In this document: positions 59-31,609 of the stretch, piece after piece | Position numbering within the stretch: the first letter of the stretch is position 1 | Layout: each line of letters starts with the position of its first letter | Assembly: GCA_013420905.1 (NCBI GenBank) | Contig: JAAXNY010000007.1 | Location: forward strand, 1-64,000 | DNA length: 64,000 bases | Direction of reading: 5' to 3' | From: Collybia mongolica | Taxonomy: Eukaryota > Basidiomycota > Agaricomycetes > Agaricales > Clitocybaceae | Notes under the pieces: generated by a model | Told to the model about the DNA's origin: nothing | The model's input: only the letters and a program-made list of their open reading frames with translations | The model's database searches: none | Program-made: the position numbers and the translations under genes

Positions 59-1088
59 ATGGCTCGTCATATCGTCCTGCAAGGGGCTAACACGATTGAC
101 GAGCTCATTTCCCTGATCCCGTCTGACTATCGTCAGGTCCTCCGCGAGCCCCTTATGGGCGTCCGCACTACAACTGAAAAGTTGATTGCGGCGCGGACCA
201 CTCTAGCCAAGTGGCAGCAGCATGAAGCTGCTGGGACATATCCCACGATCTTACGATCAAAAGCCCCCGAGGTCCAAATGAGCAAGGACTTCGGCGCGGA
301 CGCCCAAGCTGCGGCCCATAAAGCCGCCCTTGACGCCGCCCATAAGAAATACCTCGCGGAGAATCTTACCAACATGATCCGCGCCAAGACAGATGAGGTC
401 ACTTTCCTAAGTGAGGCTATTAAACCGAGGAACCTGTTTAAGGAACTTCAGCCGATAGTGGAAGCCCACTACTCGCAGCGCCTGAAAGCATCGGAGGTAC
501 CGATGTTTGTCACCAACGCGGCCGGGGAACCGGAGTTGCAGGGGTTTAAGATGAGCGACGCGCAGTTCGAACTTGGCAAACAAGTCAGGGACGACTGCGT
601 CGTGTATGCCTACCGTGTGGTCACCATCACGGAAATGCAGGAGGACGCACGGGCCCTCCGCTTTAAGAAAAAGGTAACGCTCAAGCAAGCGGCTGACGTT
701 GAGATGACCGATCTCTCCGGCAATGACAAATCGACGGTCCAGTCGATGGTCGACAAAGCAGTAGCCGCACAAATGAAAAAGCTCAACGCTGCGAAGGCCT
801 CCGGTAAAGGCGCCAAAGGAAAGGTAAGTGCTAACGCATTTGCTTCTTCCTCACGGCTAACTTTAGATTCCCCTTTAGGATCAGGGGAAGAAGTCCAAGT
901 CTTCGCCCAATCGCAACAACACCGCCGCCGGTTCATCGAAGCTGAAACGCTCGAGGGCCGCCGAACCATACGTACCCAAGCCGGCCAAGAAGGCCAGGGT
1001 ATCGGCAGTTCGGGGCGGGAAACCTCTCCGCGGAGGCAACCGCGGTCGAGGCGGCAAGCCGGGCAATGGTCGAGGACGGGGCCGGTAG
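59..1088 (+). CDS. Spliced ORF1 of the Penelope-like element: basic RGG-tailed protein
   Basis: Removing the intron 824-878 shifts the frame and gives a 324-residue product (exons 59-823 and 879-1085, stop TAG at 1086-1088). The second exon then encodes a lysine/arginine-rich stretch with KKSKSS, PKPAKKARV and a Gly-Arg-rich tail (GNRGRGGKPGNGRGRGR). This looks like a nuclear, nucleic-acid-binding tail. The same DNA in the unspliced frame encodes unremarkable sequence, which argues that the spliced frame is the selected one here. The likely role is an RNA-binding ORF1 protein for the retroelement. That role is inferred from composition; no named domain is recognised. Confidence 0.6.
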
Positions 1089-3376
1089 ACGCGCGTCTAT
1101 CCCCCAATGTCGTATTTCGGTACGATCATCCTTCTACCTACCCGGATTCCATACTAACGTTATCTTACCCGGATGCTATTAATTACATATTATTACGTAC
1201 GCCTGTAAACATTATTACGGCTTCCCAGTATAAATCCTATGTTCACCGCTCCCCTGAAGTAAGCTTGCCAATCGAAATCGAACATGACCTTAGTGTGGGA
1301 ATGAACTTTATGTTCCCCACACCGCGCAACACTCAATTATTGAAAGATGCGTGGAGCGACTTCGATCGAAGAATTCGCTGGCGTCTTAAGTTTACGTTCG
1401 AAAACGACGACGCCCCCTATGATCCCGACTTTGAGGTACCTCACATATCAACGGCAGAACCCCCAAAGTTACCCAGCTATCTCGAATTAGGACTCACCCG
1501 TGGCCGCGGCTTCGTATATGAAACGATCCGCAATATGCCCCGTGAAGAAGCAAAGGGCCGCCTTTACTCGTTAGAGCCCAATGTATCCCGCATTCGAAAG
1601 TTCTTGTTTGATAACAAATACGTGGTTACGAACACAGATAAGAACCTGGGAATAGCTGTATCTAAACGAGACTGGATTATAGAAAAATGTTTAGATCTAT
1701 TGGCCGATGAAAGTAATTATTTACCTTTACACGAGCTAGTAGCAAATAGTTATTTAAAAACTCAATGTACCCAAATGGAGGAAATAGCAAAGCTCTGCGA
1801 AGCGCATATCTCCAACCCGCAAGTCTGCATTTTTATGCGACATCAAATAACCCCGAAAGGGGAAAAGCACAACGTTCCCATCTTTTACGGAATTCCTAAA
1901 ATACACAAGGAACCTGTCAAGATGAGGCCCATCATTCCATGTCATAGTGCGATCCAAAACCCCGCGGCGAAGTACGTGAGTAAAATCCTTAAACCGATTG
2001 TGAAATCGGCACCAACCGTCATACACGGAACAAAAGACTTGGTGCTAAAATTAAGGCAGGTAAAATTCCAACGTGGACGACGATTCTATATCGTTACCGG
2101 CGACGTAGTCGCTTTCTACCCAAATATACCCATAGAGAGATGTTTCGAGGTCATACTCAATCTCTACGAGAGGCACTATTTTGGCGAAAGTTTCGACACG
2201 TGTAAAGACCGGCTTACCAAACAAGAGTTACATGAATACGACATCTTTGTTCGGTGTCTCACGACTGGAAATAGTAACCTGATTACGCAGTTTCAAGATA
2301 AATTCTATAAACAAACGCGCGGCCTAGCTATGGGCGTCGCGTCTTCGCCGGATTTAGCCAATTTATTTGGCTGGTTCTTCGAAGAATCTTGTGGAATCTT
2401 GACTAACACGCTCGTACCTTTTTACGGGCGTTACATCGATGATTGCGCGGCGATTGTATATGCTTCTTCAGAAGCAGAAGCACTCAATCACCTCGCTTGT
2501 GTTCAATTCGATGGCTGTGTTATTGAATGGAACGTGTCGGAATCGCATCAGCCCTTCCTGGACTTAACCCTGTATCGCGATCAATATTCGGAGTTACAGT
2601 GGATGCCCTATCGCAAAGCACGTTCGCATCAAGAAAGAATCCCATGGATTTCTTCCCACCCCCTAGATGTGAAACGGGGGACATTCGTGGGAGAAATGTC
2701 ACGGCTGGCCACACTCTGTAGTCTTTATACACACTACCAGGACGCTATATCGGGCTTGGCTGCCCTTTATATCAAACGTGGTTACCCAGCTGACTTGGTC
2801 TATTCCTGGATTAAGCATAATGTACGAGAACGGTGGGAAAAACGCCATTCTGAGTCACGGCAACGCTCTAGTGACATTCTTGTGCTTAAGTCCGAATACA
2901 ACCTAGCGTGGGATTACTTCAACGCTAAGAAACTCGGAGATACAGTTCTCGGAACCTGGCGGGGTTGGATTAACGCCGCCACACATAACCGATATGGTAT
3001 TGTGTTCCCGAAATTCAGTTCGGATCTTCACGGTCTGAAGTCCTCGGTTGAGGAGTTTAACTCTTTGATCGAGACGGCGGATGGGCTCGCGCCTATCCCT
3101 GACATTACGAAAGTAGGTTTCGATAAACGTCGATTCATCGTGTCTAAGAAACGGACACGTAATCTATTTGACCTTACTAGTCTTTGGAAAAAGATTGTAT
3201 TATCCAAGATGGAAGAACAAGCTCTGGAACAGAATATGTCCCTAGAATCTAACGATGACGAACCAGCTAATGACTCTAGTGATGACACTAGCTCGACCGG
3301 TTCTCTAGAAAGACAAAATCTGTCGTTCCTATACAATATCCGCGGCGAACCCACTCGAGTGGAGGACGTCGTGTGA
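59..3376 (+). CDS. Penelope-like reverse transcriptase, ORF1-RT continuous reading frame
   Basis: This 1105-codon frame has no stop upstream as far as base 2, so the true start may lie outside the window. Residues about 1-255 form a charged, helical N-terminal part. The RT core runs from about 500 to 900. It has the Penelope-type entry motif TDKNLGI (D527), YGIPKIHK (610-617) followed by RPII, motif A TGDVVAFYPNIP (D682), motif B GLAMGVASSPDLANLF (from 755), and motif C YIDD (792-795) followed by FLDLTLY. The last ~200 residues are acidic and show no GIY-YIG nuclease. The YGIPKIHK and thumb spacing point to the Penelope group rather than LINE or LTR RTs. Residues 256-343 are translated only if the intron at 824-878 is retained. 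No internal stop or frameshift is seen, so the copy may be recent and active. Confidence 0.88.
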   Translation: MARHIVLQGANTIDELISLIPSDYRQVLREPLMGVRTTTEKLIAARTTLAKWQQHEAAGTYPTILRSKAPEVQMSKDFGADAQAAAHKAALDAAHKKYLAENLTNMIRAKTDEVTFLSEAIKPRNLFKELQPIVEAHYSQRLKASEVPMFVTNAAGEPELQGFKMSDAQFELGKQVRDDCVVYAYRVVTITEMQEDARALRFKKKVTLKQAADVEMTDLSGNDKSTVQSMVDKAVAAQMKKLNAAKASGKGAKGKVSANAFASSSRLTLDSPLGSGEEVQVFAQSQQHRRRFIEAETLEGRRTIRTQAGQEGQGIGSSGRETSPRRQPRSRRQAGQWSRTGPVDARLSPNVVFRYDHPSTYPDSILTLSYPDAINYILLRTPVNIITASQYKSYVHRSPEVSLPIEIEHDLSVGMNFMFPTPRNTQLLKDAWSDFDRRIRWRLKFTFENDDAPYDPDFEVPHISTAEPPKLPSYLELGLTRGRGFVYETIRNMPREEAKGRLYSLEPNVSRIRKFLFDNKYVVTNTDKNLGIAVSKRDWIIEKCLDLLADESNYLPLHELVANSYLKTQCTQMEEIAKLCEAHISNPQVCIFMRHQITPKGEKHNVPIFYGIPKIHKEPVKMRPIIPCHSAIQNPAAKYVSKILKPIVKSAPTVIHGTKDLVLKLRQVKFQRGRRFYIVTGDVVAFYPNIPIERCFEVILNLYERHYFGESFDTCKDRLTKQELHEYDIFVRCLTTGNSNLITQFQDKFYKQTRGLAMGVASSPDLANLFGWFFEESCGILTNTLVPFYGRYIDDCAAIVYASSEAEALNHLACVQFDGCVIEWNVSESHQPFLDLTLYRDQYSELQWMPYRKARSHQERIPWISSHPLDVKRGTFVGEMSRLATLCSLYTHYQDAISGLAALYIKRGYPADLVYSWIKHNVRERWEKRHSESRQRSSDILVLKSEYNLAWDYFNAKKLGDTVLGTWRGWINAATHNRYGIVFPKFSSDLHGLKSSVEEFNSLIETADGLAPIPDITKVGFDKRRFIVSKKRTRNLFDLTSLWKKIVLSKMEEQALEQNMSLESNDDEPANDSSDDTSSTGSLERQNLSFLYNIRGEPTRVEDVV
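824..878 (+). other. Facultative 55-nt intron at the ORF1/RT boundary
   Basis: The donor is GTAAGT at 824, a CTAAC branch-point match lies at 857-861, and the acceptor is TTTAG at 874-878. Its length of 55 is not a multiple of three. Splicing ends ORF1 at 1086 and retention fuses ORF1 to the reverse transcriptase. A nearer acceptor at 866 would give an immediate stop. Confidence 0.6.
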
Positions 3377-3786
3377 ACTTAACCTGTTGCCCCGGTCCAA
3401 GTTGATCGGGCGCTTTGGGGCGTAGCAGCGTGTGAGCTTCTTGCCATCCTTGGTCGGAGTTAACCTATCAGATCTCTATCGGTCCCACGACCGCTGGTCT
3501 TATGACAGCGTGAGTCTAAGTAGTCCAATGTGGCGAAAAGCAGCCGAATTTGATCGGCGGAGATATACCGGTAGATCCCCTTCCCTGTGCGGGGAACTCC
3601 TTAGACCCGGAACGGCTCGCTTACGTGCGTGCGTTTGTTTACCTTCGGGGACGCTCTTGTTGCGGCCCGTGGGTATTGTTTCCATCTATTCTTAGCGGTA
3701 AAAATTAAACCGTTGTTGATACTTTGTAAGTACCACGATTTATGTCCTAGCGACAGACGGTATTAACCGAGGCTCTTAGAGACATA

Positions 3787-3934
3787 CTAACCCTAACTCT
3801 AACCCTAACCGTGAGTACTTGTTTGCTTAATGCATCCGATCTACGTCAATCTGACATTGAACGAATTAGCTAACCCGAACCCTAACCTAACCGTTAACCT
3901 AACCTAACCCTAACCGGTTAACCCAACCTAACCC
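3787..3934 (+). repeat. Degenerate telomeric CCCTAA repeats
   Basis: Two clusters (3787-3810 and about 3868-3934) of CCCTAA and variants such as CTCTAA and CCTAA are separated by ~57 bp of other sequence. They directly follow the 3' end of the Penelope-like element. The variant units suggest an old internal tract or an imprecise telomerase template. Confidence 0.85.
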
Positions 3935-4459
3935 GCCTGAGCCGGACCGGACTTTGATCCGACCACCGGCCCGACATGGACGGTTAAAGGCCACGTGCCC
4001 GGTCCGAAATGACCGCGACGTGTGAAAGGTTGCTAATCATTACAGCTGACCGGAGTAATCCGTTCGGTTTCGTTCTCACAGGTTGTCAAGGTCGTTAATA
4101 GACGGTCGCCGATCGGTGCCCAACACACTGCCTTCGGGCAGAGTTAGTAAGCCCGCTTCGGCGATGTCGTGTTCTATTCCGATCTGCCAGACGTTATGGA
4201 AGCGACTGCGCATCTGTCATGCGCGCAAATGGCCATTGGCCGCCTCTGACAGGTAGATGACTAAGTATCCCGACTTTAGCCTAACTTCGGAACAAAGCTA
4301 AAGTCCGCAGCAACCCGTATACACCCTAAAACCGATCTGAAGAGTCTTAAAAGACGAAAGGATCCGACCGGTGGTCTCCTCCATCGATCCTTATCGGTAA
4401 CTTTCCGTCCCTCAACTATATCCTCCAACAAAAACGCTTCGCGTTTTTGTTGTCGTCCA
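3935..4459 (+). repeat. Telomere-bounded structured unit A (525 bp), carries a hammerhead ribozyme
   Basis: The unit begins GCCTGAGCCGGACCGG directly after CCCTAACCC and ends with a hairpin (AAAAACGC TTCG GCGTTTTT-like) and GTCGTCCA directly before CCCTAACCC. Units B (4469-4995) and C (8843-9366) share both ends, so it is a defined element rather than a random truncation. It has no long reading frame. It shows two small stems capped by TTCG loops near 4130-4165, a 9-bp stem (GACTTTAGC with GCTAAAGTC) near 4270-4305, the hammerhead at 4331-4398 and the 3' terminal hairpin. It is probably a non-autonomous RNA mobilised onto chromosome ends by the neighbouring Penelope-type RT, or a solo terminal repeat of such an element. 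That origin is an inference. Confidence 0.75.
4331..4398 (+). ncRNA. Hammerhead ribozyme, design 2, in unit A
   Basis: All core parts are in order. Stem I is ACCGAT (4331-4336) with ATCGGT (4393-4398). The core is CTGAAGA (4337-4343). Stem II is GTCT/AGAC with a TAAA loop (4344-4355). GAAA is at 4356-4359. Stem III is GGATC (4360-4364) with GATCC (4386-4390), closed on a small internal hairpin. A UU cleavage dinucleotide lies at 4391-4392, so the predicted cut is after 4392. The outer ends lie in stem I, making it type I. Hammerheads are known from terminal repeats of Penelope-like elements, which fits the neighbourhood. Confidence 0.85.
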
Positions 4460-4468
4460 CCCTAACCC
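4460..4468 (+). repeat. Telomeric stub CCCTAACCC between units A and B
   Basis: Nine bases of telomere-like sequence separate the conserved 3' end of unit A from the conserved 5' end of unit B. This suggests the two units were joined at a telomere. Confidence 0.8.
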
Positions 4469-4995
4469 GCCTGAGCCGGACCGGACTTTGATCCGACCAC
4501 CGGCCCGACATGGACGGTTAAAGGCCACGTGCCCGGTCCGAAATGACCGTGACGTGTGAAAGGTTGCTAATCATTACAGCTGACCGGAGTAATCCGTTTG
4601 GCTTTGTTCCCACAGATTGTCAAGGTCGTTAATAGACGGTCGCCGATTGGTGCCCAACACACTGCCTTCGGGCAGAGTTAGTAAGCCCGCTTCGGCGATG
4701 TCGTGTTCTATTCCGATCTGCCAGACGCTATGGAAGCGACTGCGCATCTGTCAAGCGCGCAAATGGCCATTGGCCGCCTCTGACAGGTAGATGACTAAGT
4801 ATCCCGACTTTCGCCTAACTTCGGAATAAAGTGAAAGTCCGCAGCAACACGTATACCGAAAAAACCCGATCTGAAGAGTCTTAAAAGACGAAAGGATCCG
4901 ACCGGTGGAATCCAACCATCGATCCTTATCGGGACCCCTTTTGCCTACTCAACTAGTCCTCCAACCCAAACGCTTCGCGTTTGTGTTGTCGTCCA
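4469..4995 (+). repeat. Telomere-bounded structured unit B (527 bp)
   Basis: This is a second copy of unit A with the same ends and scattered substitutions. In the 9-bp stem near 4807-4840 an A-U pair of unit A is replaced by C-G, and stem I of the hammerhead has C-G where unit A has A-U. Changes that preserve pairing point to selection on RNA structure. The terminal hairpin is slightly altered (CAAACGC TTCG CGTTTG). Confidence 0.75.
4865..4933 (+). ncRNA. Hammerhead ribozyme, design 2, in unit B
   Basis: Stem I is CCCGAT (4865-4870) with ATCGGG (4928-4933). The core is CTGAAGA, stem II GTCT/AGAC, then GAAA, stem III GGATC/GATCC and cleavage dinucleotide UU at 4926-4927. Compared with unit A, the outer stem I pair has changed from A-U to C-G on both sides, a compensatory change. 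The stem III internal loop sequence differs freely. Confidence 0.85.
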
Positions 4996-5170
4996 CCCTA
5001 ACCGCTAACCTTTAACCTTAAAGGCTAAGTAGCCGGGCCGATGGGGCCCGGCGCCTAAGTATAGCGCGGCTAAAAGAAGATAAGATCCAGGCACGAGATC
5101 CATCTTCTTTATTGATCCGCGTCGGTGAATAGCTAACCGAAATTGATCCGCGTATCGGATAAATACTAAG
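4996..5170 (+). repeat. Telomere stub plus GC-rich structured leader upstream of the 305-bp unit
   Basis: CCCTAACCGCTAACC telomere-like sequence (4996-5012) is followed by ~155 bp with strong hairpin potential (for example CCGGGCC with GGGCCCGG near 5032-5050). This leader is absent from the second copy of the 305-bp unit, which starts at 8529. The second copy may therefore be 5'-truncated, or this leader may belong to another element. Confidence 0.5.
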
Positions 5171-5475
5171 GTAGGGCGGGCCAACATGGACCGCGTTCCA
5201 TGCGCGTCGAGCGCGCATGCCAGCGCACACCCCCTCACATGGCGCAACATGTGTCTGAGGGGTTTACGCTGTGGTCGCTCGGAAAAACCGCGCGCGCGCC
5301 GTAACGGTGCGGCGGCGCGAGCGGAGAAACTGATTAAACATTAACAAACAGGCCTGATGAGTACTTATACGAAACAGGTCGGGTGGGGGATTCCCCCAAC
5401 CCTGTTGCTTGTTTGTAACGCAACTCATCGTACCAAAGTCACTCGCAACCTCGCTTCGCTCGGTTGCTCGTTCCT
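5171..5475 (+). repeat. 305-bp ribozyme-bearing unit, copy 1
   Basis: This segment recurs base-for-base, as far as I can read it, at 8529-8833, with a constant offset of 3358. It is GC-rich and densely self-complementary, including a perfect 8-bp stem CATGCGCG/CGCGCATG near 5197-5220 and a CCCCTCA/TGAGGGG hairpin near 5232-5262. The hammerhead follows at 5344-5416, then a GCAACC/GGTTGC hairpin near 5443-5466. It has no coding potential. It ends at GTTCCT and is followed by CCTAAC. Confidence 0.8.
5344..5416 (+). ncRNA. Hammerhead ribozyme, design 1, copy 1
   Basis: A perfect 10-bp stem I joins ACAAACAGGC (5344-5353) and GCTTGTTTGT (5407-5416). The core CTGATGA is at 5354-5360. Stem II is GTA/TAC with loop CTTA (5361-5370). 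GAAA is at 5371-5374. Stem III CAGG (5375-5378) pairs with CCTG (5401-5404) around a GGGTGGGGG/CCCCCAACCC extension. The cleavage dinucleotide is UU at 5405-5406. The sequences of all three stems differ from design 2, so the two designs are separate ribozymes rather than drifted copies. Confidence 0.88.
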
Positions 5476-5560
5476 ACCTAACTTCCGTCCCTCAACTATA
5501 TCCTCCAACAAAAACGCTTCGCGTTTTTGTTGTCGTCCAACCTAACCCTAACCTAACCCA
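5476..5560 (+). repeat. Truncated unit tail flanked by telomere repeats
   Basis: ACCTAAC (5476-5482) joins the 305-bp unit to the last ~57 bp of a unit-A-type sequence (5483-5539), including the AAAAACGCTTCGCG terminal hairpin. A clear CCTAACCCTAACCTAACCC tract (5540-5560) follows. The 5' truncation with an intact 3' end is what incomplete reverse transcription would leave. The telomere tract abuts a broken gene at 5561. Confidence 0.75.
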
Positions 5561-6588
5561 GTCCATCATGTACTTCAAGGCCTTGGAATGCTGGATAAGG
5601 TCCTTCTCCCATAATTGGAAAGGCTGGCTGAACATCTAGCTCATCACAGGCAGCTTGTATCAAATCCCTGTCAATAGTAATGCTGGCACTAGGGTGGGAG
5701 TCCTTGAAATGCCTTTTGACCTGGCTAGAAAGTACAGCTACTTTGCAGGCCATGCAAACCAATGCACACAGAACTGTATTGACCTTGAGGCCAATAGAAT
5801 CCAGGTAGGCATTTCCCTTGAAATATATATTAAAACTTGATATAATCTTCAGGACTAAACATACCCTGAGCTCCTGTTCATCATCAGTATCATTTTCATT
5901 TGCCATGGAATTTGAAACCTCCTTTTCAACTACCTCAGCTACCTCCATGGGTTGGTCTGAAGGTTGAGCTGTAAAGGGTACAGCCTGTTCCTCTGGTATT
6001 ACAACTTCAGGTTCTACCTCAGGCTGGATATTTAGAACTGGTATCTAATTGATATCATCTAAGTTTTAAATTTCTCAGACTTTTAAAACTTGTTTACTTC
6101 TGTTTCCATGTCTTCAATTCCACCATTATGGCTTGATACTGGTTCTGCTATAGGTGGGTTCTGGAGTGGTCATCTCAGTATTATTTACTAATCATTTTAA
6201 TAATTGTAGCTGGCCCACCTCAACAGGTGTAACCACTGTTGGATCAGCCTGGACTGCATTGGGTTCTTGTAACTGAGAATATAAACACTGGTTAAGTTTT
6301 AAAAATCCCAGACAATTAAAACTTTCTTACTTCAACCCAGTATGCATTTTCACTTGCTATTACCTTTTTAATATGTTGTTTGAGGCTTTTAGATCCACTA
6401 TATATTTTTTTGCAGAGAGAAGAACTGCATTGGCATAAAAATTTACCCTCTTCATTCTTGGTTACCTTGACATTACCAGTAGGAAAAGTAAGAATGGTTG
6501 TTGAGATACATTTAGCTGTATGGGTATCCCTTGATCCTCTATCTGTAAAAGTAGCAAGTCCACAAGATGAGCAAGCAAAGTAAACCAT
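5561..6588 (-). pseudogene. Zinc-finger/OrsD-like gene fragment cut at a telomere tract
   Basis: On the minus strand an N-terminal exon (6588-6331) encodes C2H2-like fingers, CSSCGLATFTDRGSRDTHTAKC and FLCQC...CKKIYSGSKSLKQHIKK. It has a GTAAGA donor and an in-phase second exon from 6272. A later segment (about 5948-5561) carries an OrsD-type motif, LVCMACKVAVLSSQVKRHFKDSH, spaced like the finger of the OrsD domain common in fungal repeats linked to RecQ-like genes. The frame then runs straight into telomere repeats at 5560, so the C-terminal part is missing. Base composition is AT-rich, unlike the GC-rich units on either side. It could be a transposon gene. The family call is moderate; the truncation is plain. 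Confidence 0.6.
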
Positions 6589-6884
6589 ATTTAAAACTTG
6601 TGTTAGAAGTTAAGAGTGTGGGAACAATTTATGTGGGGGTTAAGAGAAGGGTGGGAATATTCAAGCTAACACTCTGGTATATATAGGTAGTCTGAGTTTG
6701 AATATGTTAATCAGATCTTAGATTTGATGGTAGATTTCAATCTTAGATTAGACTTTCATCTTTTGTTTGGAATCTGATCTTAGATAAGATCTTCAACTTG
6801 GTTGAATCAAGTTTCAATTATATGAGATTTTTAAAACTTTTTTTCATTTATGACTTGTAGATTTTTTTGTAATTTTTTCGGTCT

Positions 6885-7262
6885 GCAGCACTGCAGCACT
6901 GGACCCTGACTGCAGCACTGGACCCTTAATGCAGCACTGCAGCACTCTGCAGCACTCCTACCTGTAATCTATGCAGCACTAGACCCTTACTGCAGCACTG
7001 CAGCACTCTGCAGCATTTCTACTCTTAGAGGTGCAGCACTGGACCCTGAGTGCTGCAGCATCAGGCTTTGGCTGCAGCACTGCAGCACTGGACCCTTTGT
7101 GCAGCACTCTGCAGCACTGCAGCACTGGACCCTTAGTGCAGCACTCTGCAGCACTGGGGAGTGGACCCTTAATGCTGCAGAGGACCCTTAATGCAGCACT
7201 GCAGCACTCTGGGTGGACCCTTAATGCTGCAGAGGACCCTTGATGCAGCACTGCAGCACTGG
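6885..7262 (+). repeat. GCAGCACT / GGACCCTTA tandem repeat block
   Basis: About 380 bp consist of the modules (T)GCAGCACT and GGACCCTTA(A)TGCAGCACTGCAGCAC in varied order. The open frames seen on both strands are by-products of the repeat and lack independent support. The block is embedded in AT-rich DNA. Confidence 0.85.
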
Positions 7263-7333
7263 AAACTCACGTGAGTTTCTTTGGATCAGATTATTAGGAA
7301 ACTCACGTGAGTTTCTTTGGATCAGATTATTAG
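7262..7333. repeat. Tandem duplication of a 36-bp sequence containing an 18-bp perfect palindrome
   Basis: Two adjacent identical 36-bp copies (7262-7297 and 7298-7333) each begin with the perfect palindrome GAAACTCACGTGAGTTTC and end TTATTAG. The CACGTG centre is an E-box. Similar AGATTATTAG sequence recurs at 8519-8528, just before the second 305-bp unit, so this may mark an element edge. Confidence 0.8.
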
Positions 7334-7960
7334 GTGAGTAAGTCCTCACTTGATCTCCTCACTGATCATTTTGCTCATTGTATGCCGAGTTCTGGGCCGT
7401 TCACAAAACCACCTATGGTTCCTGAATGCGCTGAATTCCCTCCCTCTGGACGTCCCATGCACACAATGAACGATTGACTTTGTCATATACCGAGTTAGTG
7501 CCTCCTCATCACCCCACCCCATAAACTCAAACTTTTTATTGCAAGACAACCGCCGATCTGTATGGCATAACGCTTGGTGCTCCTGGATGCGTTGTTAATA
7601 CTCTATTGAACGACCGTGTGCTTGTCACGGTTTGTGCCTTTGTTCTATATGGTGAGTGCCTGCTCTTCATCCTGGCCCTATAAATTCATTTTTTTATTGC
7701 ACGACAACCGTTGAACCGTATGCCCCAAGAGAGGGTGTTCCTGAGAGCGTTCATGGATCTCTTTTGATTGACCACACCTCTTTCCCTATGCGCTTCACCA
7801 TTGCATATGGTGAGTACCTGCTCTTACCTGCCACTAACTGTAACCAACTCATTTAATTAACTGCAGGATAACCGCTCAACAACACATCCCGAGCCTGGGT
7901 GTTTCTGAAAGCATACACTCTAACCTTTCAACTGACCCTTCTCTTTTCAGGGTGTGCATC
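7334..7960 (+). repeat. Degenerate ~160-bp tandem repeat with an exon/intron-like rhythm
   Basis: Diverged units begin near 7546, 7705 and 7867 with GA(C/T)AACCG and are preceded by T-rich tracts ending TTGCA(A/C/G). Each unit ends with a TATGGTGAGT-type junction (7651, 7808; GTTAGT near 7495). The pattern resembles repeated ~107-bp exons separated by ~52-bp introns (GTGAGT to TTGCAG). No protein family is recognised in any frame. It may be a decayed repetitive gene. Confidence 0.45.
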
Positions 7961-8129
7961 TTGCTTGTATATGGTCAGTGTAGGGGGTCAGTGTAGGTTG
8001 AGATGTATTTTTAGCAATGTATTTTTTTTAGGGGCACTACTTGATATCATACTCTGTTCTCACTTTAAATTAAGATCACTTTGAGGTTGTGTTTGAGTGT
8101 GAGAGTGATGGTGGATGGGTGATGTGTCT

Positions 8130-8510
8130 GATCTGTAAGTGAGGTGCACAACTTTTGGATGGAGTCGTATGACTGCCAATGACAATACTGGGCGTACATT
8201 CTGTTGTCAGTATGAGGCATGAGAGCAATGTAAGTTTGAATTATGGTAGAAATACACTTCAGAGGACTACAAAGTCAGGTTTGGTGGGAGTCGTACGACT
8301 GCCAATGACTGTGGATGACTGTGGATGGCTGGCCAACGACTGCCAACAACTGCAACTGGAACATACATGAGAGCAATGTAAGTTTGAATCATGGTAGAAA
8401 CACACTTCAGAGGACTATCAAAGAGTCGTACGACTGCCAACGACTGTGGATGACTGTGGATGGCTAGCCAACGACTGCCAACGACTGCGACTGGAACATA
8501 CCCATGTTCT
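8130..8510 (+). repeat. ~150-bp tandem repeat with GTCGTACGAC and CCAACGACTGCC modules
   Basis: Two full copies begin ATGAGAGCAATGTAAGTTTGAA at about 8218 and 8367, each followed by CACTTCAGAGGACTA and AGTCGTACGACTGCCAA. A partial copy precedes them. Short internal repeats of GACTGTGGAT and AACGACTGCC add a second level of repetition. No gene is seen. Confidence 0.75.
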
Positions 8511-8528
8511 TCACAAGTAGATTATTAG

Positions 8529-8833
8529 GTAGGGCGGGCCAACATGGACCGCGTTCCATGCGCGTCGAGCGCGCATGCCAGCGCACACCCCCTCACATGG
8601 CGCAACATGTGTCTGAGGGGTTTACGCTGTGGTCGCTCGGAAAAACCGCGCGCGCGCCGTAACGGTGCGGCGGCGCGAGCGGAGAAACTGATTAAACATT
8701 AACAAACAGGCCTGATGAGTACTTATACGAAACAGGTCGGGTGGGGGATTCCCCCAACCCTGTTGCTTGTTTGTAACGCAACTCATCGTACCAAAGTCAC
8801 TCGCAACCTCGCTTCGCTCGGTTGCTCGTTCCT
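8529..8833 (+). repeat. 305-bp ribozyme-bearing unit, copy 2
   Basis: Identical by eye to 5171-5475 over its whole length, although the flanks differ completely. On the left it joins AT-rich repeat DNA with no telomere stub. On the right it joins CCCTAACCC (8834-8842) and unit C. Complete identity beside clearly diverged A/B/C units suggests a recent duplication or strong conversion. Confidence 0.8.
8702..8774 (+). ncRNA. Hammerhead ribozyme, design 1, copy 2
   Basis: Same parts as at 5344-5416, shifted by 3358: stem I 8702-8711 with 8765-8774, core CTGATGA 8712-8718, stem II GTACTTATAC, GAAA, stem III and cleavage UU at 8763-8764. Confidence 0.88.
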
Positions 8834-8842
8834 CCCTAACCC

Positions 8843-9366
8843 GCCTGAGCCGGACCGGACTTTGATCCGACCACCGGCCCGACATGGACGGTTAAAGGCC
8901 ACGTGCCCGGCCCGAAATGACCGTGACGTGTGAAAGGTTACTAATCATTATAGCTGACCGGAGTAATCCGCTCGGCTTTGTTCCCACAGGTTGTCAAGGT
9001 CGTTAATAGACGGTCGCTGATTGGTGCCCAACACACTGCCTTCGGGCAGAGTTAGTAAGCCCGCTTCGGCGATGTCGTGTTCTATTCCGATCTGCCAGAC
9101 GCTATGGAAGCGACTGCGCATCTGTCATGCGCGCAAAAGGCCATTGGCCGCCTCTGACAGGTAGATGACTAAGTATCCCGACTTTAGCCTAACTTCGGAA
9201 CAAAGCTAAAGTCCGCAGCAACCCGTATACACCCTAAAACCGATCTGAAGAGTCTTAAAAGACGAAAGGATCCGACCGGTGGTCTCCTCCATCGATCCTT
9301 ATCGGTAACTTTCCTCTCTCAACTATATCCTCCAACAAAAACGCTTCGCGTTTTTGTTGTCGTCCA
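8843..9366 (+). repeat. Telomere-bounded structured unit C (524 bp)
   Basis: Third copy of unit A, with the same GCCTGAGCC start and GTCGTCCA end, flanked by CCCTAACCC on the left and CCCTAACCCC on the right. It is closer to unit A than to unit B. It contains the conserved TTCG-capped stems, the GACTTTAGC/GCTAAAGTC stem and a hammerhead at 9239-9306. Confidence 0.75.
9239..9306 (+). ncRNA. Hammerhead ribozyme, design 2, in unit C
   Basis: Stem I is ACCGAT (9239-9244) with ATCGGT (9301-9306). The core is CTGAAGA, stem II GTCT/AGAC with TAAA, then GAAA, stem III GGATC/GATCC and predicted cleavage after 9300. Core identical to the unit A ribozyme. Confidence 0.85.
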
Positions 9367-10005
9367 CCCTAACCCCTAGAAAGCCCCGTGTCATGTTTTC
9401 GCAACAGTAAATATGAAGCTTCTTTAATACTGATCCGACGACTAGTCGTGGATACAGGGCAAAGATATTGAGTTCAAGGAGTGAAGGAAGGAGTGGGCCG
9501 GGCTTGGGTTTGCATGACCAAAGCATGCGCAGGATTACAGGATCGGAGAAGTCCCAGTTGGAATCCATGAGTGGCACAAAACCCAAGCTCTTGATGCGAT
9601 AGGAGTAGTAGTATACCCTTTCGAAGTCTTCTGGTAGAAGATCCCGAATGATTTGCTAGTACGGGTAGTCACATGAGCGATCCATATTTTTTACTAAACA
9701 ATAAATCATGTTAGGCTTACAAGGTCGCCCCCCCAGGAATATACCATTCCTCCGCGATAGCTGTGTGTGTTCCTCTTGCGCACCGCCCAAGCATCTTGTG
9801 GTAGGCACCGAACAAGCGGTCCTAGGGATGCATGATAATACCACAAAATATCGAGCGCTGGGTCAGAGAATGCCTTGCATGTCCTCGATAACGCAACAAG
9901 GGATTTGGATCTTCTGGAATTTGAGTAATATATGAATTTGTCGTCGTCGCGGGTGTTCTCAAAAATCAGCGAGAGGATTTCTTGAACCTCTAGACAGCGA
10001 TGCAT
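9367..10005 (-). pseudogene. F-box-like protein gene, C-terminus lost at a telomere junction
   Basis: Exon 1 (10005-9721) begins MHRCLEVQEILSLIF and contains SLVALSRTCKAFSDPALDILW, a signature of a very common agaricomycete F-box-like family. The intron 9720-9656 has a GTAAGC donor and CTAG acceptor and is in phase. Exon 2 (from 9655) continues RDLLPEDFERVYYYSYR and ends about 90 residues later, where the gene sequence gives way to GGGTTAGGGTGG (minus strand of 9367-9377). Family members usually run to 400-600 residues, so only the N-terminal ~190 remain. The break with telomere repeats directly attached looks like a healed chromosome end. Confidence 0.72.
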
Positions 10006-23266: not shown

Positions 23267-23926
23267 TCAATCCTTATAATACCTTGACGCCTTTTCTCCG
23301 ACCCCAAACTGCAAAAGCCTCAAAGCATACTCCACAACCTCCTTCCCAAACCTCCCCCTCACGAACTCCACAACCATATCTACACCACACCCCGCCCCAC
23401 CCGCCGTCCAAAACTTCCCATCCACCACCCACCTCTCATCCTTCCAGTCTACCTCGGGGTGCGTACCTTTCACCCACGGCAATACCTCCCTATTCGTCGT
23501 TGCCTTCTTCCCTTTAAGTATCCCGACATCCACGAGCCACATCCCTCCCGTGCAGACACTCATAATGACTTCCGTTTTCTCGGTTGCCTCTTTCAAGAAT
23601 ACATCTGCTGCAGCAGGGCGGTGGCTCGGGAGTGGTCCACCGACGAGGAGGATGTCAAGGTCTCGAGGGCAGTTTTCGTATGTCACCGTGGGTAAGAACC
23701 GCAATGTAGGTGACAAGATTGCCGGCTCAGTGAGAGACGACGCGACATAGTGGAAAGTCATCGATGGCGCCTGAGCGAAGAGATGTTTCTCCACGGGAAT
23801 TGACGTATTCGTCAAATCCAAACACTCCTTGGAAATGGACCCAAGAATGTCCATGCCAATGATATCGGATAACTGGATGGACTCGAGCATGATGCCGATT
23901 TGCAGAGGTTTCAATGTGGTTGTCAT
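23267..23926 (-). CDS. DJ-1/PfpI family protein, paralogue 1
   Basis: A single exon of 219 residues spans the whole ~200-residue class I glutamine-amidotransferase-like fold. The nucleophile elbow SVCTGGMWL places the reactive Cys at 125. An acidic residue early on (E15 in IMLESIQLSD) sits where DJ-1/PfpI proteins keep the partner Glu. DILLVGGPLPSHRP and the C-terminal WTAGGAGCGVDMV motifs match fungal ThiJ/PfpI proteins. The likely activity is glyoxalase/hydratase-like chemistry on a small molecule or stress protection; the substrate is unknown. It is the most diverged of three local copies. There is no signal peptide, so it is probably cytosolic. Confidence 0.88.
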   Translation of the reverse strand: MTTTLKPLQIGIMLESIQLSDIIGMDILGSISKECLDLTNTSIPVEKHLFAQAPSMTFHYVASSLTEPAILSPTLRFLPTVTYENCPRDLDILLVGGPLPSHRPAAADVFLKEATEKTEVIMSVCTGGMWLVDVGILKGKKATTNREVLPWVKGTHPEVDWKDERWVVDGKFWTAGGAGCGVDMVVEFVRGRFGKEVVEYALRLLQFGVGEKASRYYKD

Positions 23927-25628
23927 AGTCGATAGTGTTCAGGTACGTGCGATTAAACTGAACTTTTAGAATGAAAAAAACGACATTTATAACTGGGGCA
24001 AATGCCCAGGGTTGGTTATTCGACTACCACTTCGACGTCGCACGAGTGAGGGCTATGTACTACACTCGGGCTGCGGACTACACTCGGGCTGCGGATTGCA
24101 CTCATGCTGCGGATTACACTCGAGCTATACTTCCCACTACCACTGGCGATGAACTTCTCACGAAAAGGCCATACCTCATACGAAAGCATTACACATGCCG
24201 CTCGAACTATCTGCGTGTCAAAGCTAAGAATGCAAGTACCTCATCGACCGGATAGGCTATTTCTTCGCAGCGCGATCCAGCCATACACTACATACTCAAA
24301 GAAGCTCTTATCACCCTCTCCCTACAGGCGGAACTCTGGGATGCGCTGATACCTCCGCATTAATGTGATTGGCCCGTCGAATTCGCTTTTATCTTTCATG
24401 TCAAAGCACCGGACCCACTCGTTTCCTTCGCACAGTTCGAAACGGCAGCATTAATTACGTGGCAAAGCGGCATCATTGTTGAGCAACAAATAAAGTTGTA
24501 TGCTTCCGGAGAAGTTCGTTAAGATGGATTAAGAATGCGATGGGCTGATTCATTCCCCCCTCGATGCTACACACACTGAAGATATCTGACACATTTGACT
24601 ATGACCCATGACCCCTTGACCTAAACTGATGTCCTGATCCCTTGCGCAGTCACCTAGAACTTTCGTGGCTTCTGGTTCCTCCTACAAGTCAGGGCCCGAA
24701 AATCACAGGATAGAGCGAGACGCGCATTCGAAGACGCGTCGTCAGACATGACTGACTGAACTCCGCCAAGTTTCTTGCGCATGGCTCTGGGAGCGACTTG
24801 AATTAAATATGTAAGAGAACAAAATCGGAAGAAAGAAAGTAAAACCCGGTTTGAATCACAAGTATTCGCACCAACGACCGCCTTATTTTACTCGAGCCTG
24901 TTGACTTTCTCTATTCGCCTTCCTCTAACACGGTCTGCAAACGAGGTGATTGACATATACATACGGCGTTACAAACATGAGAGGCATCTTTATTTGCGAT
25001 ATTCCGTTCTAATCGTGGAGAAATAACGAGCCCCTTTATTCGTAGGGAAACATACGTATAGGAACAGCGACTTCGGTTCCAGGCATGGGACGGTTTATCT
25101 ATTGGTTCATTCACCGGCTTCCTTGTTTTCTCGACGGTGCTTTGTAAACACCCAAATCGCTTCAGCTTACCGATCACTTACCACTCGTGATATCAAGCTA
25201 TTGTTATTCCGGCGGTAGAATCCATGTCGTCCCCGTATATCAACACGGATGCCAAGTCACGAGATAAACTCAGTCAGCTACAGCTCCCAGCTGATCGCGA
25301 TTATCGTGCCTCGCGACAATACATCACTAGGCGGCATCCGGGGCTTCCGCGGTAAGGCTAACTCGTACGCCTTCCACACCCCTTCCTTAATTTTAGATGG
25401 TTCCCCTCCTGCTATGTTGGTCTTACCCCACAGACCTACACCTTTCTCCGGATTCAGGACAGGATCGCACAAATTCGCTTCACAATCAGTACATCCATCG
25501 GTCTTCACCAGTTTCAAGGAGAACTTCGCGCTGGGTCGAAATACGCCCTACGGTTTTTTCCCGCACTCTATGAATCGACTTGTTCATAGGAACTACAACC
25601 GTTCATACTCTGTTTAACGAACAGACCT
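23927..25628. other. Intergenic with a short 18-bp tandem repeat
   Basis: Four imperfect copies of an 18-bp unit (TACACTCGGGCTGCGGAC-like) lie at about 24056-24127. A 79-codon minus-strand frame at 25278-25517 has a cysteine-rich start but no recognisable domain. Otherwise nothing is seen. Confidence 0.5.
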
Positions 25629-26291
25629 TTAATCTTTATAGAACCTCGATGGTCTTTCCACAACACCGAACTGAAGGCCAGTCAGTGCAAACTCGACAAT
25701 CTCCTTATTAAACCGTCCAGTCCTCAGGTACTCCACGACCATATCAATACCACACCCCGCCCCGCCCGCAGTCCAAAACTTCCCATCTATCACCCACCTC
25801 TCATCCTTCCACTCAACCGCGGGGTGCAGCTGCTTCGCCAATGGTAGCACCTGTCTATTCGTCGTCGCTTTTCTTCCATTGAGCGCCCCCGAATGAGCCA
25901 GCCACAGTCCGCCCGTGCAGACGCTCATTACGACTTCACTCTTCTCAACCGCCTCCTTCATAAAAACATCCGCTGCGGTGGGGCGATGATTCGGGAGCGG
26001 TCCACCGATGAGGAGAATGTCGAGGTCGCGTGGACATGTCTCATACGTAACCGTGGGCATGAATCGCAGCGAGGGTGTCATGAACACCGGCTCTGAAAGC
26101 GACGTCGCGATATAATGGAATGTCATCGGATATGCTTGGGCGAAGAGGTGTTGTGGGATGGGAATAGAGGTGTTCATCAGGTCGAGATTTTCCTTAGAGA
26201 GTGAGCCAAGGATGTCCATTCCAACGATGTCGGAGAGCTGTACGGATTCGAGCATGACACCGATTTGTAGAGGCTTTAGTGAAGTCGACAT
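25629..26291 (-). CDS. DJ-1/PfpI family protein, paralogue 2
   Basis: Single exon, 220 residues, reactive Cys 125 in SVCTGGLWL. It differs from paralogue 3 (30789-31451) at about 14 positions, mostly conservative, and is less similar to paralogue 1. The upstream ~450 bp is also shared, inverted, with paralogue 3, so both probably keep the same promoter. The C-terminal GVVERPSRFYKD differs from the GVGEKASRFYKD shared in type with the other two. Role as for the family: small-molecule or stress chemistry, unproven. Confidence 0.87.
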   Translation of the reverse strand: MSTSLKPLQIGVMLESVQLSDIVGMDILGSLSKENLDLMNTSIPIPQHLFAQAYPMTFHYIATSLSEPVFMTPSLRFMPTVTYETCPRDLDILLIGGPLPNHRPTAADVFMKEAVEKSEVVMSVCTGGLWLAHSGALNGRKATTNRQVLPLAKQLHPAVEWKDERWVIDGKFWTAGGAGCGIDMVVEYLRTGRFNKEIVEFALTGLQFGVVERPSRFYKD

Positions 26292-26740
26292 TTTCGAAGC
26301 TGATAGTAGTTCAAACGTGTTGGGAGAACTGGATATTCACGACAGACAAGGACGAGATTTATGTTTTGATTCGCGGACGTGGGATAAGTCTCCTCATCAG
26401 CATGATGCCGTAAATCAAATTTCGGGCTGCATTCTCCGCTACCGCAGGGCACGGATTCTGCGACAAATGCTATATCAAGAACAAGGACAGAGAACACAAG
26501 ATTTATGTATATGGTAAGAATGACGGAATTTTGGACATACAAAGCACAATCAATTCACGGACATTCTCAAAGCATCACTTCCCGGAGATACTGAACCAAC
26601 AAAGTGCAGAAGCATCATATCTTCAACTCCATCGTGATCTTTCAACAGTAAGGAAATACTCTAGTTCTCAGACACCACATCACTTCACGACTAGGGTCCG
26701 AAGCCAACCGAGTAGGGTGAAGCGCATTGTTGATGGTATG
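26292..26740. repeat. Promoter-side arm of the inverted duplication (left)
   Basis: Reverse-complement match to about 30340-30788, beginning at the start codons of DJ-1 paralogues 2 and 3 and fading about 450 bp out. A 110-codon frame at 26531-26863 lies across it but is not kept in the partner, so it is not called a gene. Confidence 0.7.
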
Positions 26741-30339: not shown

Positions 30340-30788
30340 TTATTTCATTGCCCCCTCGCGATGCACCTCACTCTATCCGGTTGGCTTCGGACCCTAGTCG
30401 TAGAGTGATGGGGGGTCTGAGAACTGGAGCATTGACCCACTATTGAAAGATCATGACAGAGTTGAAGATATAACACTTGCCCACTTTGCTAGTTCGGTAT
30501 CTCCGGAAAGTGATGCTTTCAGAATGTCTGTGCATTGATTGCGCTTTATTTGTACAAACATCTTTCATATACAAAAACCTTGTATTCTCTGTCCTTGTTC
30601 TTGATACAGCATTTGTCGCGGAATCCGTTCCCTGCGGTAGCGGAGAACACAGCCCGAGATTTGATTTATGGCGATCATGCTGATTAAAAGACTTACCCCA
30701 CGTCCGCAAATCAGAATATAAGTCCTGCCCATGTCTGTCATAAATATCCAGTTCTCCCAACACGCTTGAACTACTATCAGCTTCGAAA
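30340..30788. repeat. Promoter-side arm of the inverted duplication (right)
   Basis: Inverted partner of 26292-26740. The two arms and their DJ-1 genes form a ~1.1 kb inverted repeat around a ~3.6 kb centre. Confidence 0.7.
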
Positions 30789-31451
30789 ATGTCGACTTCA
30801 CTAAAGCCTCTACAAATCGGTGTCATGCTCGAATCCGTACAGCTCTCCGACATTATTGGAATGGACATTCTCGGCTCAATCTCCAAGGAAAATCTCGACC
30901 TGACGAACACTTCTATTCCCGTCCCACAACACCTCTTCGCCCAAGCGCATCCCATGACATTCCATTATATCGCAACTTCGCTTTCAGAGCCGGTGTTCAT
31001 GACTCCCTCGTTGCAATTTATACCTACGGTGACGTACGAGACATGTCCACGCGACCTCGACATCCTCCTCATTGGTGGGCCGCTCCCGAACCATCGCCCC
31101 GCCGCAGCGGATGTTTTTATGAAGGAAGCGGTTGAGAAGAGTGAAGTCGTAATGAGCGTCTGCACGGGCGGGCTGTGGCTGGCTCATTCGGGGGCGCTCA
31201 ATGGAAGAAAAGCGACGACGAATAGACAGGTGCTACCATTGGCGAAGCAGCTGCACCCCGCGGTTGAGTGGAAGGATGAGAGGTGGGTGATAGACGGGAA
31301 GCTTTGGACTGCGGGTGGGGCAGGGTGTGGTATTGATATGATCGTGGAGTACCTGAGGAGTGGAAGGTTTAATAAGGAGATTGTGGAGTTTGCACTGACG
31401 GGCCTTCAGTTCGGTGTTGGGGAAAAGGCATCGAGGTTCTATAAAGATTAA
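30789..31451 (+). CDS. DJ-1/PfpI family protein, paralogue 3
   Basis: Single exon, 220 residues, with Cys 125 in SVCTGGLWL, E15 in VMLESVQLSD and the WTAGGAGCGIDM motif. It faces paralogues 1 and 2 in the opposite direction. Its upstream flank matches paralogue 2 and its downstream flank matches paralogue 1, so it carries the full ancestral unit of which the other two keep halves. The frame is intact. Same uncertain small-molecule role as the others. Confidence 0.88.
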   Translation: MSTSLKPLQIGVMLESVQLSDIIGMDILGSISKENLDLTNTSIPVPQHLFAQAHPMTFHYIATSLSEPVFMTPSLQFIPTVTYETCPRDLDILLIGGPLPNHRPAAADVFMKEAVEKSEVVMSVCTGGLWLAHSGALNGRKATTNRQVLPLAKQLHPAVEWKDERWVIDGKLWTAGGAGCGIDMIVEYLRSGRFNKEIVEFALTGLQFGVGEKASRFYKD

Positions 31452-31609
31452 ACAGATTATGAATGATTATTGTTCCTTTGAACGGTTCGATTCATATAGT
31501 GTGGGAGACCGTAGTGTGTATTACGACCTAGTGCGAAATCCTTAAAATAATAAGCTCGCTTGATGTACTGATTGTGTTATTATGCGATCCTTGGAGATTG
31601 TTCGTTGGG

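Follow-up and report, generated by a model that had tools for sequence, protein, structure and literature searches.

Candidate hammerhead ribozymes in the pseudo-terminal repeats of two telomere-attached, putative Penelope-like families of Collybia mongolica

Hammerhead Motifs at the Locus

At the start of contig JAAXNY010000007.1 of the basidiomycete Collybia mongolica (assembly GCA_013420905.1), positions 1 to 64,000 of which form the window, i.e., the whole stretch of DNA analyzed here, an open reading frame (ORF) for a reverse transcriptase (RT) is followed by several short units that carry sequences resembling hammerhead ribozymes (Table 1). The best explanation overall, and one that we consider highly probable, is that these hammerheads lie in the pseudo-long terminal repeats (pLTRs) of two families of telomere-attached Penelope-like elements, F1 and F2, which probably lack an endonuclease. 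An initial annotation had proposed three of the motifs, in units A, B and C; sequence parts, descriptor and minimum-energy fold all agree with that proposal and the predicted cuts fall at the right base, but two further motifs, both of family F2, had been missed.

The motifs were sought on both strands with a descriptor requiring CTGANGA, GAAA, TH and three stems of at least 4, 3 and 4 pairs. Five matches were found in the window, three of the CTGAAGA type and two of the CUGAUGA type, while 300 dinucleotide shuffles of the window gave none. Each F1 motif is composed of CTGAAGA, a stem II of GTCT/AGAC with a TAAA loop, GAAA, a stem III of GGATC/GATCC, a U16.1-U17 site and a stem I of six pairs, and hence displays the core (CUGANGA / GAAA / UH), the three stems and the open stem I of a type I hammerhead. 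The F2 motifs have the more canonical core CTGATGA and a stem I of ten pairs. For units A, B and C, the hammerhead three-way junction is the minimum-energy fold of the RNA, with 12 of 16 stem pairs in unit A and 13 of 16 in unit B reaching a probability of at least 0.9 (minima 0.63 and 0.54, respectively); the unit C hammerhead is identical in sequence to that of unit A. Unit B, which differs from unit A by 29 substitutions and 8 gap columns over 530, has C-G as the outer pair of stem I where units A and C have A-U, and the pairing is therefore preserved, as initially noted. Genome-wide, this pair is A-T in 31 of 47 F1 rows and C-G in the other 16 (one degraded row, the C8 copy, being left out), and the switch is, on these counts, a single two-sided change between subfamilies and not many events.

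The complete descriptor is kept at 44 F1 and 35 F2 places among the loci scanned. At all five motifs of the window, 65-68 bases separate the predicted cut from the end of the element, an arrangement common to F1 and F2 pLTRs that have no significant similarity in the window (best E 0.34). Downstream of the hammerhead of unit A, the tail hairpin CAACAAAAACGC-TTC-GCGTTTTTGTTG is strong, with a folding z of -7.96. Overall, the three ribozyme-like sequences first proposed look like genuine self-cutting RNA motifs, and the hammerhead is, in our estimation, likely to be active in the cell.

Two Families of Elements with a Reverse Transcriptase

A search of the genome (46.0 Mb in 26 contigs; contigs are cited as C1, C3 and so on) with the RT of the window returned 27 matches falling into two families, F1 with 12 (94-100% identical) and F2 with 15 (43-55%), the RTs of the two families being 45-46% identical to each other. 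YIDD and its flanking motifs are present in all three proteins checked, two of F1 and one of F2. Matches to NCBIfam RT models are weak (the best being Drt3a, 7.2e-05, residues 632-807), a sequence search of the PDB gave no RT match (first no match at all, then two chance ones), and a single-sequence AlphaFold2 model was unusable, with a pLDDT of 36. Membership of the RT in the Penelope-like clade, next to telomerase RT, is putative and is based on a reading of motifs and on element anatomy. Regarding the endonuclease, no G[ILV]Y motif occurs in any of the three proteins, a single Y[IV]G match in the F2 protein has no GIY partner, and Pfam at E<=10 returned no family for any of them, a silence that is weak on the endonuclease since the RT itself was missed. 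F1 and F2 elements probably lack this domain.

The anatomy of the elements is recurrent. In order, they comprise a pLTR (body, hammerhead and 65-68 bases with the tail hairpin), a junction J, the RT ORF, a 3' untranslated region (UTR), a telomere-like block, a second pLTR and telomeric repeats. J, between the first pLTR and the ORF, reads [A/T]CCCTAACC. The copy at C3:1-5249 runs from telomere and telomere-like block through pLTR body, hammerhead, tail hairpin and ACCCTAACCC to the ORF, and then through 3' UTR, telomere-like block and second pLTR to ACCCTAACCC again. Like the copy at C1:21465-26529, it contains one ORF of at least 400 aa per unit of about 5 kb. The stretch from RT stop to pLTR body spans 557 bases in the window and 550 in the C3 copy and, with its telomere-like repeats, is found again in further copies that bear an RT. 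A hammerhead pLTR stands about 550 bases downstream of F1 RT ORFs, and full copies have one upstream as well. The telomere-like block is part of the element, as other F1 copies with an RT also carry it ahead of their 3' pLTR. Pseudo-LTRs are accompanied by frequent 5' truncation.

Because the RT element of the window ends like C3:1-5249, unit A is, judged by this layout, the 3' pLTR of the element directly upstream, and units B and C are solo pLTRs. The description of the units as short and non-autonomous in the initial annotation is not supported by this comparison, since pLTR-ORF-pLTR copies recur at fixed spacing. Taking sequence and anatomy together, we regard it as very probable that F1 and F2 represent hammerhead-bearing telomeric elements of the Penelope-like kind.

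Attachment to Chromosome Ends

We tabulated 100 pLTR 3' ends, the searches giving lower bounds. In 94 of these copies the 3' end points inward from the nearest contig end, and the six exceptions all lie on C22, a 50.7-kb contig of uncertain polarity. All but one are located within 109 kb of a contig end; the sole internal copy, C8:1303840, is degraded and lies 1.3 Mb inside. Among the 97 3' flanks read, 78 start with [A/T]CCCTAA and 4 with AACCTAA, whereas 15 start otherwise (e.g., ACCCTAGCC, TCCCCAACCC, ACCCAAACAC and TCCCTCCCC), several of them differing from these starts by one or two changes. At the left ends of C3, C11 and C13 and at the right ends of C4, C16, C17 and C21, F1 or F2 sequence is adjoined by a telomeric array of about 90-130 bases; at the right end of C26, a similar array was read by eye in the sequence, the strict pattern giving no match there. 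In several cases the array sits at a 5' truncation, namely at internal base 557 of F1 (C17), internal bases 2931 (C4) and 4114 (C16) of F2, and base 80 of an F2 pLTR (C21). These eight array-bearing ends were chosen for having matches and do not provide an unbiased rate: seven left ends chosen otherwise (C2, C6, C10, C12, C14, C19 and C20), none of which is among the listed F1/F2 matches, have a telomeric array in one case, C14. With 82 of 97 flanks telomeric in this sense and arrays adjoining the elements, the telomeric boundaries initially proposed for the units are supported.

The contig of the window starts within the F1 ORF without a terminal telomeric array, and the real chromosome end is therefore missing from the assembly, along with the 5' part of the ORF and any 5' pLTR; the right ends of C9 and C11 likewise end inside an element. 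Separately, a recurrent 5' neighbor, ending in CCAATAAAAAATAGCCCCATAACC, adjoins truncated or complete pLTRs at C11:7695, C16:1564521-1564909, C5:21289, C3:48233 and other places, and it looks like the 3' terminus of one more repeat that attaches to telomeres.

Identity of Paired Pseudo-LTRs

In all ten continuous elements (six F1 and four F2), the two pLTRs are identical, with no substitution and no gap over overlaps of 56-527 bases, whereas pLTRs compared between elements are 0-32 substitutions apart and 13 of 14 directly adjacent, ORF-less pairs differ (Fisher p 5.6e-06 for identity within elements versus adjacent pairs). Pairs were counted as adjacent if fewer than 40 bases separate them, three pairs that lie 759 bases or more apart being left out, and the one identical pair, of F2, stands at C1:26078 and 26549 (125 bases). 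The initial list held 12 element pairs, 11 of them identical, from which two F2 pairs, C1b (0/406) and C15 (2+2 of 82), were then dropped because additional telomeric repeats link their first pLTR to an internal part that is truncated; these first pLTRs are probably separate insertions. Three more non-continuous pairs gave 0 of 70, 29+6 of 529 and 2+0 of 98, so that two of five non-continuous pairs are identical.

Had linear copying passed on the two pLTRs of an element independently, they would be expected to have diverged as the subtypes have. Given the identity within elements and the differences between adjacent pLTRs, both pLTRs of an element have very likely been copied from one template. 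Of note, J and the 3' end do not start with the same bases in four of the ten continuous elements (e.g., T against A in the C11 F2 element), as expected if the chromosome end supplies those bases as primer.

Possible Copying Routes

Based on these features, a route can be proposed in which the C-rich J of the RNA would pair with the G-rich chromosome end, whose 3'-OH would prime reverse transcription outward. Synthesis halting in or just past the first pLTR would leave solo units such as those of the window, while synthesis continuing through the ORF would copy the same template pLTR a second time. An RNA monomer cut by the hammerheads might have been ligated into a circle and copied slightly more than one lap. 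Such a circle is the simplest route to identical pLTRs that also uses the ribozyme; moreover, two ribozymes would excise exactly one pLTR and one ORF, and some elements have a full-length 5' pLTR. That a circular RNA served as the pLTR template is, in our view, a possibility just short of an even chance, and the wider idea that telomere-capping Penelope-like elements replicate through a hammerhead-made circle, primed by the chromosome end at a telomere-complementary site within the circle and copied over a little more than one lap, is put forward tentatively. If true, the hammerheads of Penelope-like elements would have a specific function, and pseudo-LTRs would be renewed at each cycle without the strand transfers of LTR elements.

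Several observations weigh against the overall reading, as regards either the ribozyme or the route. Prolonged copying of a circle might produce elements that continue beyond the second pLTR with another ORF, and none of the ten continuous elements was seen to do so. These elements are not fully independent, being close relatives within a subtype. No copy was found to start exactly at the predicted cut; in two, the start is the sixth base past the cut and coincides with a TAAC telomere-like microhomology, and in three it lies within the ribozyme. (The copy at C1:107741, considered as one starting at the cut site, was rejected, its start lying inside the ribozyme.) Within F1, columns variable in at least two copies amount to 4 of 42 hammerhead-constrained positions against 44 of 397 in the pLTR body (Fisher p 1.0), so that extra conservation of the ribozyme over its surroundings was not found. 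Folding energies of the three F1 motifs are unremarkable against shuffles (z -0.87, -1.61 and -0.87), and the minimum-energy fold of the F2 motif is not the hammerhead (-29.8 versus -26.9 kcal/mol, a gap of 2.9 kcal/mol). Finally, the initial annotation had named a search with Rfam hammerhead models as a check, and here its expectation failed: no family reached its gathering score in the whole window, no hammerhead family was among the matches at E<=10 over positions 3300-9500, and even when stretches of 81 and 85 bases were cut out and searched by themselves, hammerhead models scored no higher than 13.9 bits for unit A (Hammerhead_3, gathering score 48.5) and 12.9 bits for F2 (RAGATH-1-hammerhead, 56.3). 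This is a real miss by the standard set beforehand, which we do not count as refuting the fold because the core, the shuffles and the two unrelated pLTR families favor a hammerhead.

The alternative that survives best, itself unlikely in our judgment, replaces the circle by a strand transfer resembling that of LTR elements. The template would be a linear RNA that starts within the telomere-like block belonging to the 5' pLTR. Priming would take place internally, at J, and synthesis would proceed as far as the RNA 5' end, the strong-stop product, if left alone, being a solo pLTR; the G-rich end of the complementary DNA would then re-pair with the block upstream of the 3' pLTR, after which UTR, ORF, J and the same 5' pLTR would be copied, the hammerhead serving to trim RNA ends or to separate co-transcripts. 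Such a transfer accounts for identical pLTRs and for the lack of run-through, and it is in keeping with a part of the F1 body rows. Of 48 such rows, 29 start at body base 1; 13 of the 29 have an RT part directly upstream, and the 16 others (13 solo pLTRs and 3 first pLTRs) have their 5' end at the telomere-like block or on its border. In vitro, the lizard element PAc has, furthermore, been shown to initiate internally, close to where pLTR and ORF meet (PMC11167929). However, the remaining 19 of 48 rows have their start within the body, and synthesis therefore does not stop at the block alone; the block upstream of 3' pLTRs is mostly constant in length and sequence, with few traces of variable re-annealing; and the hammerhead would be left without a clear job. 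The circle and strand-transfer models both fit the identity of paired pLTRs.

It is also improbable, if conceivable, that the hammerhead folds are inactive relics and that nothing counts apart from the tail hairpin and the CCCTAACC end. The low Rfam scores and the unexceptional conservation described above would agree with this, as would the finding that a ribozyme-dead PAc RNA inserted equally well in vitro (PMC11167929). Nevertheless, two families with unrelated pLTRs retain a complete core at the same place, and the changes in F1 hammerheads are mostly confined to position 7, the loops and distal stem III, together with one paired change and one change of G-C to G-U. Among the 48 F1 rows, the core is altered from GAAA to AAAA in three diverged copies (C1:39809, C22:42128 and C8:1303840, the last with further changes) and stem I is broken in one more, also diverged (C4:29327). 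In the three AAAA copies, the change sits in a CG context, which is consistent with methylation-type decay.

A still less probable explanation is that pLTRs were homogenized after insertion by gene conversion or unequal subtelomeric recombination, with no part for the hammerhead in copying. Recombination is frequent in subtelomeres, and identical pLTRs do occur on different contigs, the F1 copies of C3 and C21 showing no difference in 525. Local gene conversion should, however, have leveled adjacent pLTRs too, and it is the closer tandem pLTRs that nearly all differ while those about 4 kb apart within an element are without exception identical. As for independent, retrozyme-like units moving as small circular RNAs, with the RT element as a mere neighbor, they would suit the excess of pLTR over RT copies (100 3' ends against 27 matches) and the monomers of about 535 bases that ribozymes would cut from tandem solos, but they are very improbable in view of full pLTR-ORF-pLTR copies at fixed spacing and of adjacent ORF-less pairs that, by their differences, look like serial insertions and not like dimers of one circle.

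Relation to Known Systems

Coprina is the fungal group of endonuclease-deficient Penelope-like elements, to which F1 and F2 are likened by anatomy. The name has been given to a superfamily (PMC6515669), and telomere-attached, endonuclease-deficient Penelope-like elements have been described from fungi (PMC3846280; PMC12477314). With these, F1 and F2 share the RT ORF in which no GIY motif is found, the attachment to chromosome ends, the fungal host and truncated 5' ends to which telomeric repeats have been added. Two features of F1 and F2, the identity of paired pLTRs and the presence of a telomere-like block ahead of the pLTR, go unmentioned for endonuclease-deficient elements in the accounts considered here. 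Hammerheads have been reported in Penelope-like elements and beside the telomeric repeats of rotifer Terminons, where, as in F1 and F2, the 3' end has a hammerhead directly followed by C-rich telomeric repeats (PMC6431247). Terminons reach 40 kb and carry accessory ORFs (PMC6431247), in contrast to the roughly 5 kb and one long ORF of F1 and F2.

Published Penelope-like hammerheads, including that of PAc from Anolis, are of type I and lie in the pLTR region like those of F1 and F2, and they are mostly minimal, without helix III (PMC11167929; PMC7761336). F1 and F2 differ from minimal hammerheads by a stem III of 5-6 pairs and a distal hairpin, and the motif can therefore fold as a monomer. In the abstract of their 2014 paper, Cervera and De la Pena reportedly included fungal elements and are said to have called fungal and protist hammerheads stable monomers. 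The PAc ribozyme required protein for cleavage and was dispensable for insertion in vitro (PMC11167929), results that call for caution in assuming a role for a hammerhead. Indeed, the in vivo role and activity of the minimal hammerheads of Penelope-like elements and Terminons were called a mystery in a 2020 review (PMC7761336). The retrozymes of plants and animals, whose circularization by tRNA ligase has been demonstrated in vitro, resemble F1 and F2 in having hammerhead repeats in which two cuts define a monomer RNA (PMC7229834); they are non-autonomous, whereas the pLTRs of F1 and F2 flank an RT ORF and neighboring ORF-less pLTRs are mostly non-identical.

Ribozyme units strung between fungal telomere repeats had been presented in the initial annotation as little or not described. 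Most of this claim finds no support, fungal telomeric Penelope-like elements and, elsewhere, their hammerheads being known; what is new is the identity of paired pLTRs within elements. In a literature that we covered incompletely, we came across neither hammerheads described from fungal telomeres nor a pLTR-identity test. With about 100 pLTR copies in two families, junctions and paired pLTRs record how copying happened, and identity within elements set against difference between elements offers a clean genomic test that can be repeated in other fungi. The role of the ribozyme thereby becomes a specific question, namely whether a circle is joined at the cut site. Even if the explanation proves ordinary, the locus is a well-resolved case of retroelements added to chromosome ends beside CCCTAA repeats.

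Features of the Window

Table 1. Positions of element parts and predicted cut sites in the 64,000-nucleotide window
Feature	Position	Strand	Remarks
F1 RT ORF	59..3376	+	1105 aa from first ATG; frame open from base 2
F1 RT motifs GLAMGVASSPDLANLF and YGRYIDDC	ORF 59..3376	+	YIDD at residue 792
F1 3' UTR	3377..3784	+	same stretch in C3 copy
Internal telomere-like block, CTAACCCTAACTCTAACCC ... CTAACCGGTTAACCCAACCTAACC	3785..3933	+	just upstream of F1 pLTR body
Unit A, body of the F1 element's predicted 3' pLTR	3934..4330	+	
F1 hammerhead, subtype A	4331..4398	+	predicted cut after 4392
3' tail with hairpin	4399..4458	+	element end at 4458 (GTCGTCC)
Telomeric junction ACCCTAACC, units A/B	4459..4467	+	
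Unit B, solo F1 pLTR	4468..4994	+	other subtype
F1 hammerhead, subtype B	4865..4933	+	predicted cut after 4927
Solo pLTR of second family, F2	5023..5474	+	
F2 hammerhead, CTGATGA	5344..5416	+	10-pair stem I; predicted cut after 5406
Tail-only F1 fragment	5479..5538	+	starts at sixth base after cut-site position
5'-truncated F2 pLTR	8527..8832	+	
F2 hammerhead	8702..8774	+	sequence identical to 5344-5416; predicted cut after 8764
Unit C, solo F1 pLTR	8842..9365	+	
F1 hammerhead, subtype A	9239..9306	+	predicted cut after 9300
Telomeric junction ACCCTAACCCC	9366..9376	+	inner edge of array

Positions 5560-8526 of the window are AT-rich; a TGCAGCACTGGACCC minisatellite occupies 6890-7260, and a palindromic 36-mer is present twice at 7261-7334. 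The end of this stretch, ...CACAAGTAGATTATTA, adjoins pLTRs also at C24, C25, C11, C23 and C3:105387, which suggests that the elements are linked end to end with a further family of subtelomeric repeats. Further inside, the arms of a large inverted repeat (25628-26406 and 30674-31452) lie 4.3 kb apart and are 93% complementary across 779 bases, and a related copy is found at 23357-23932.

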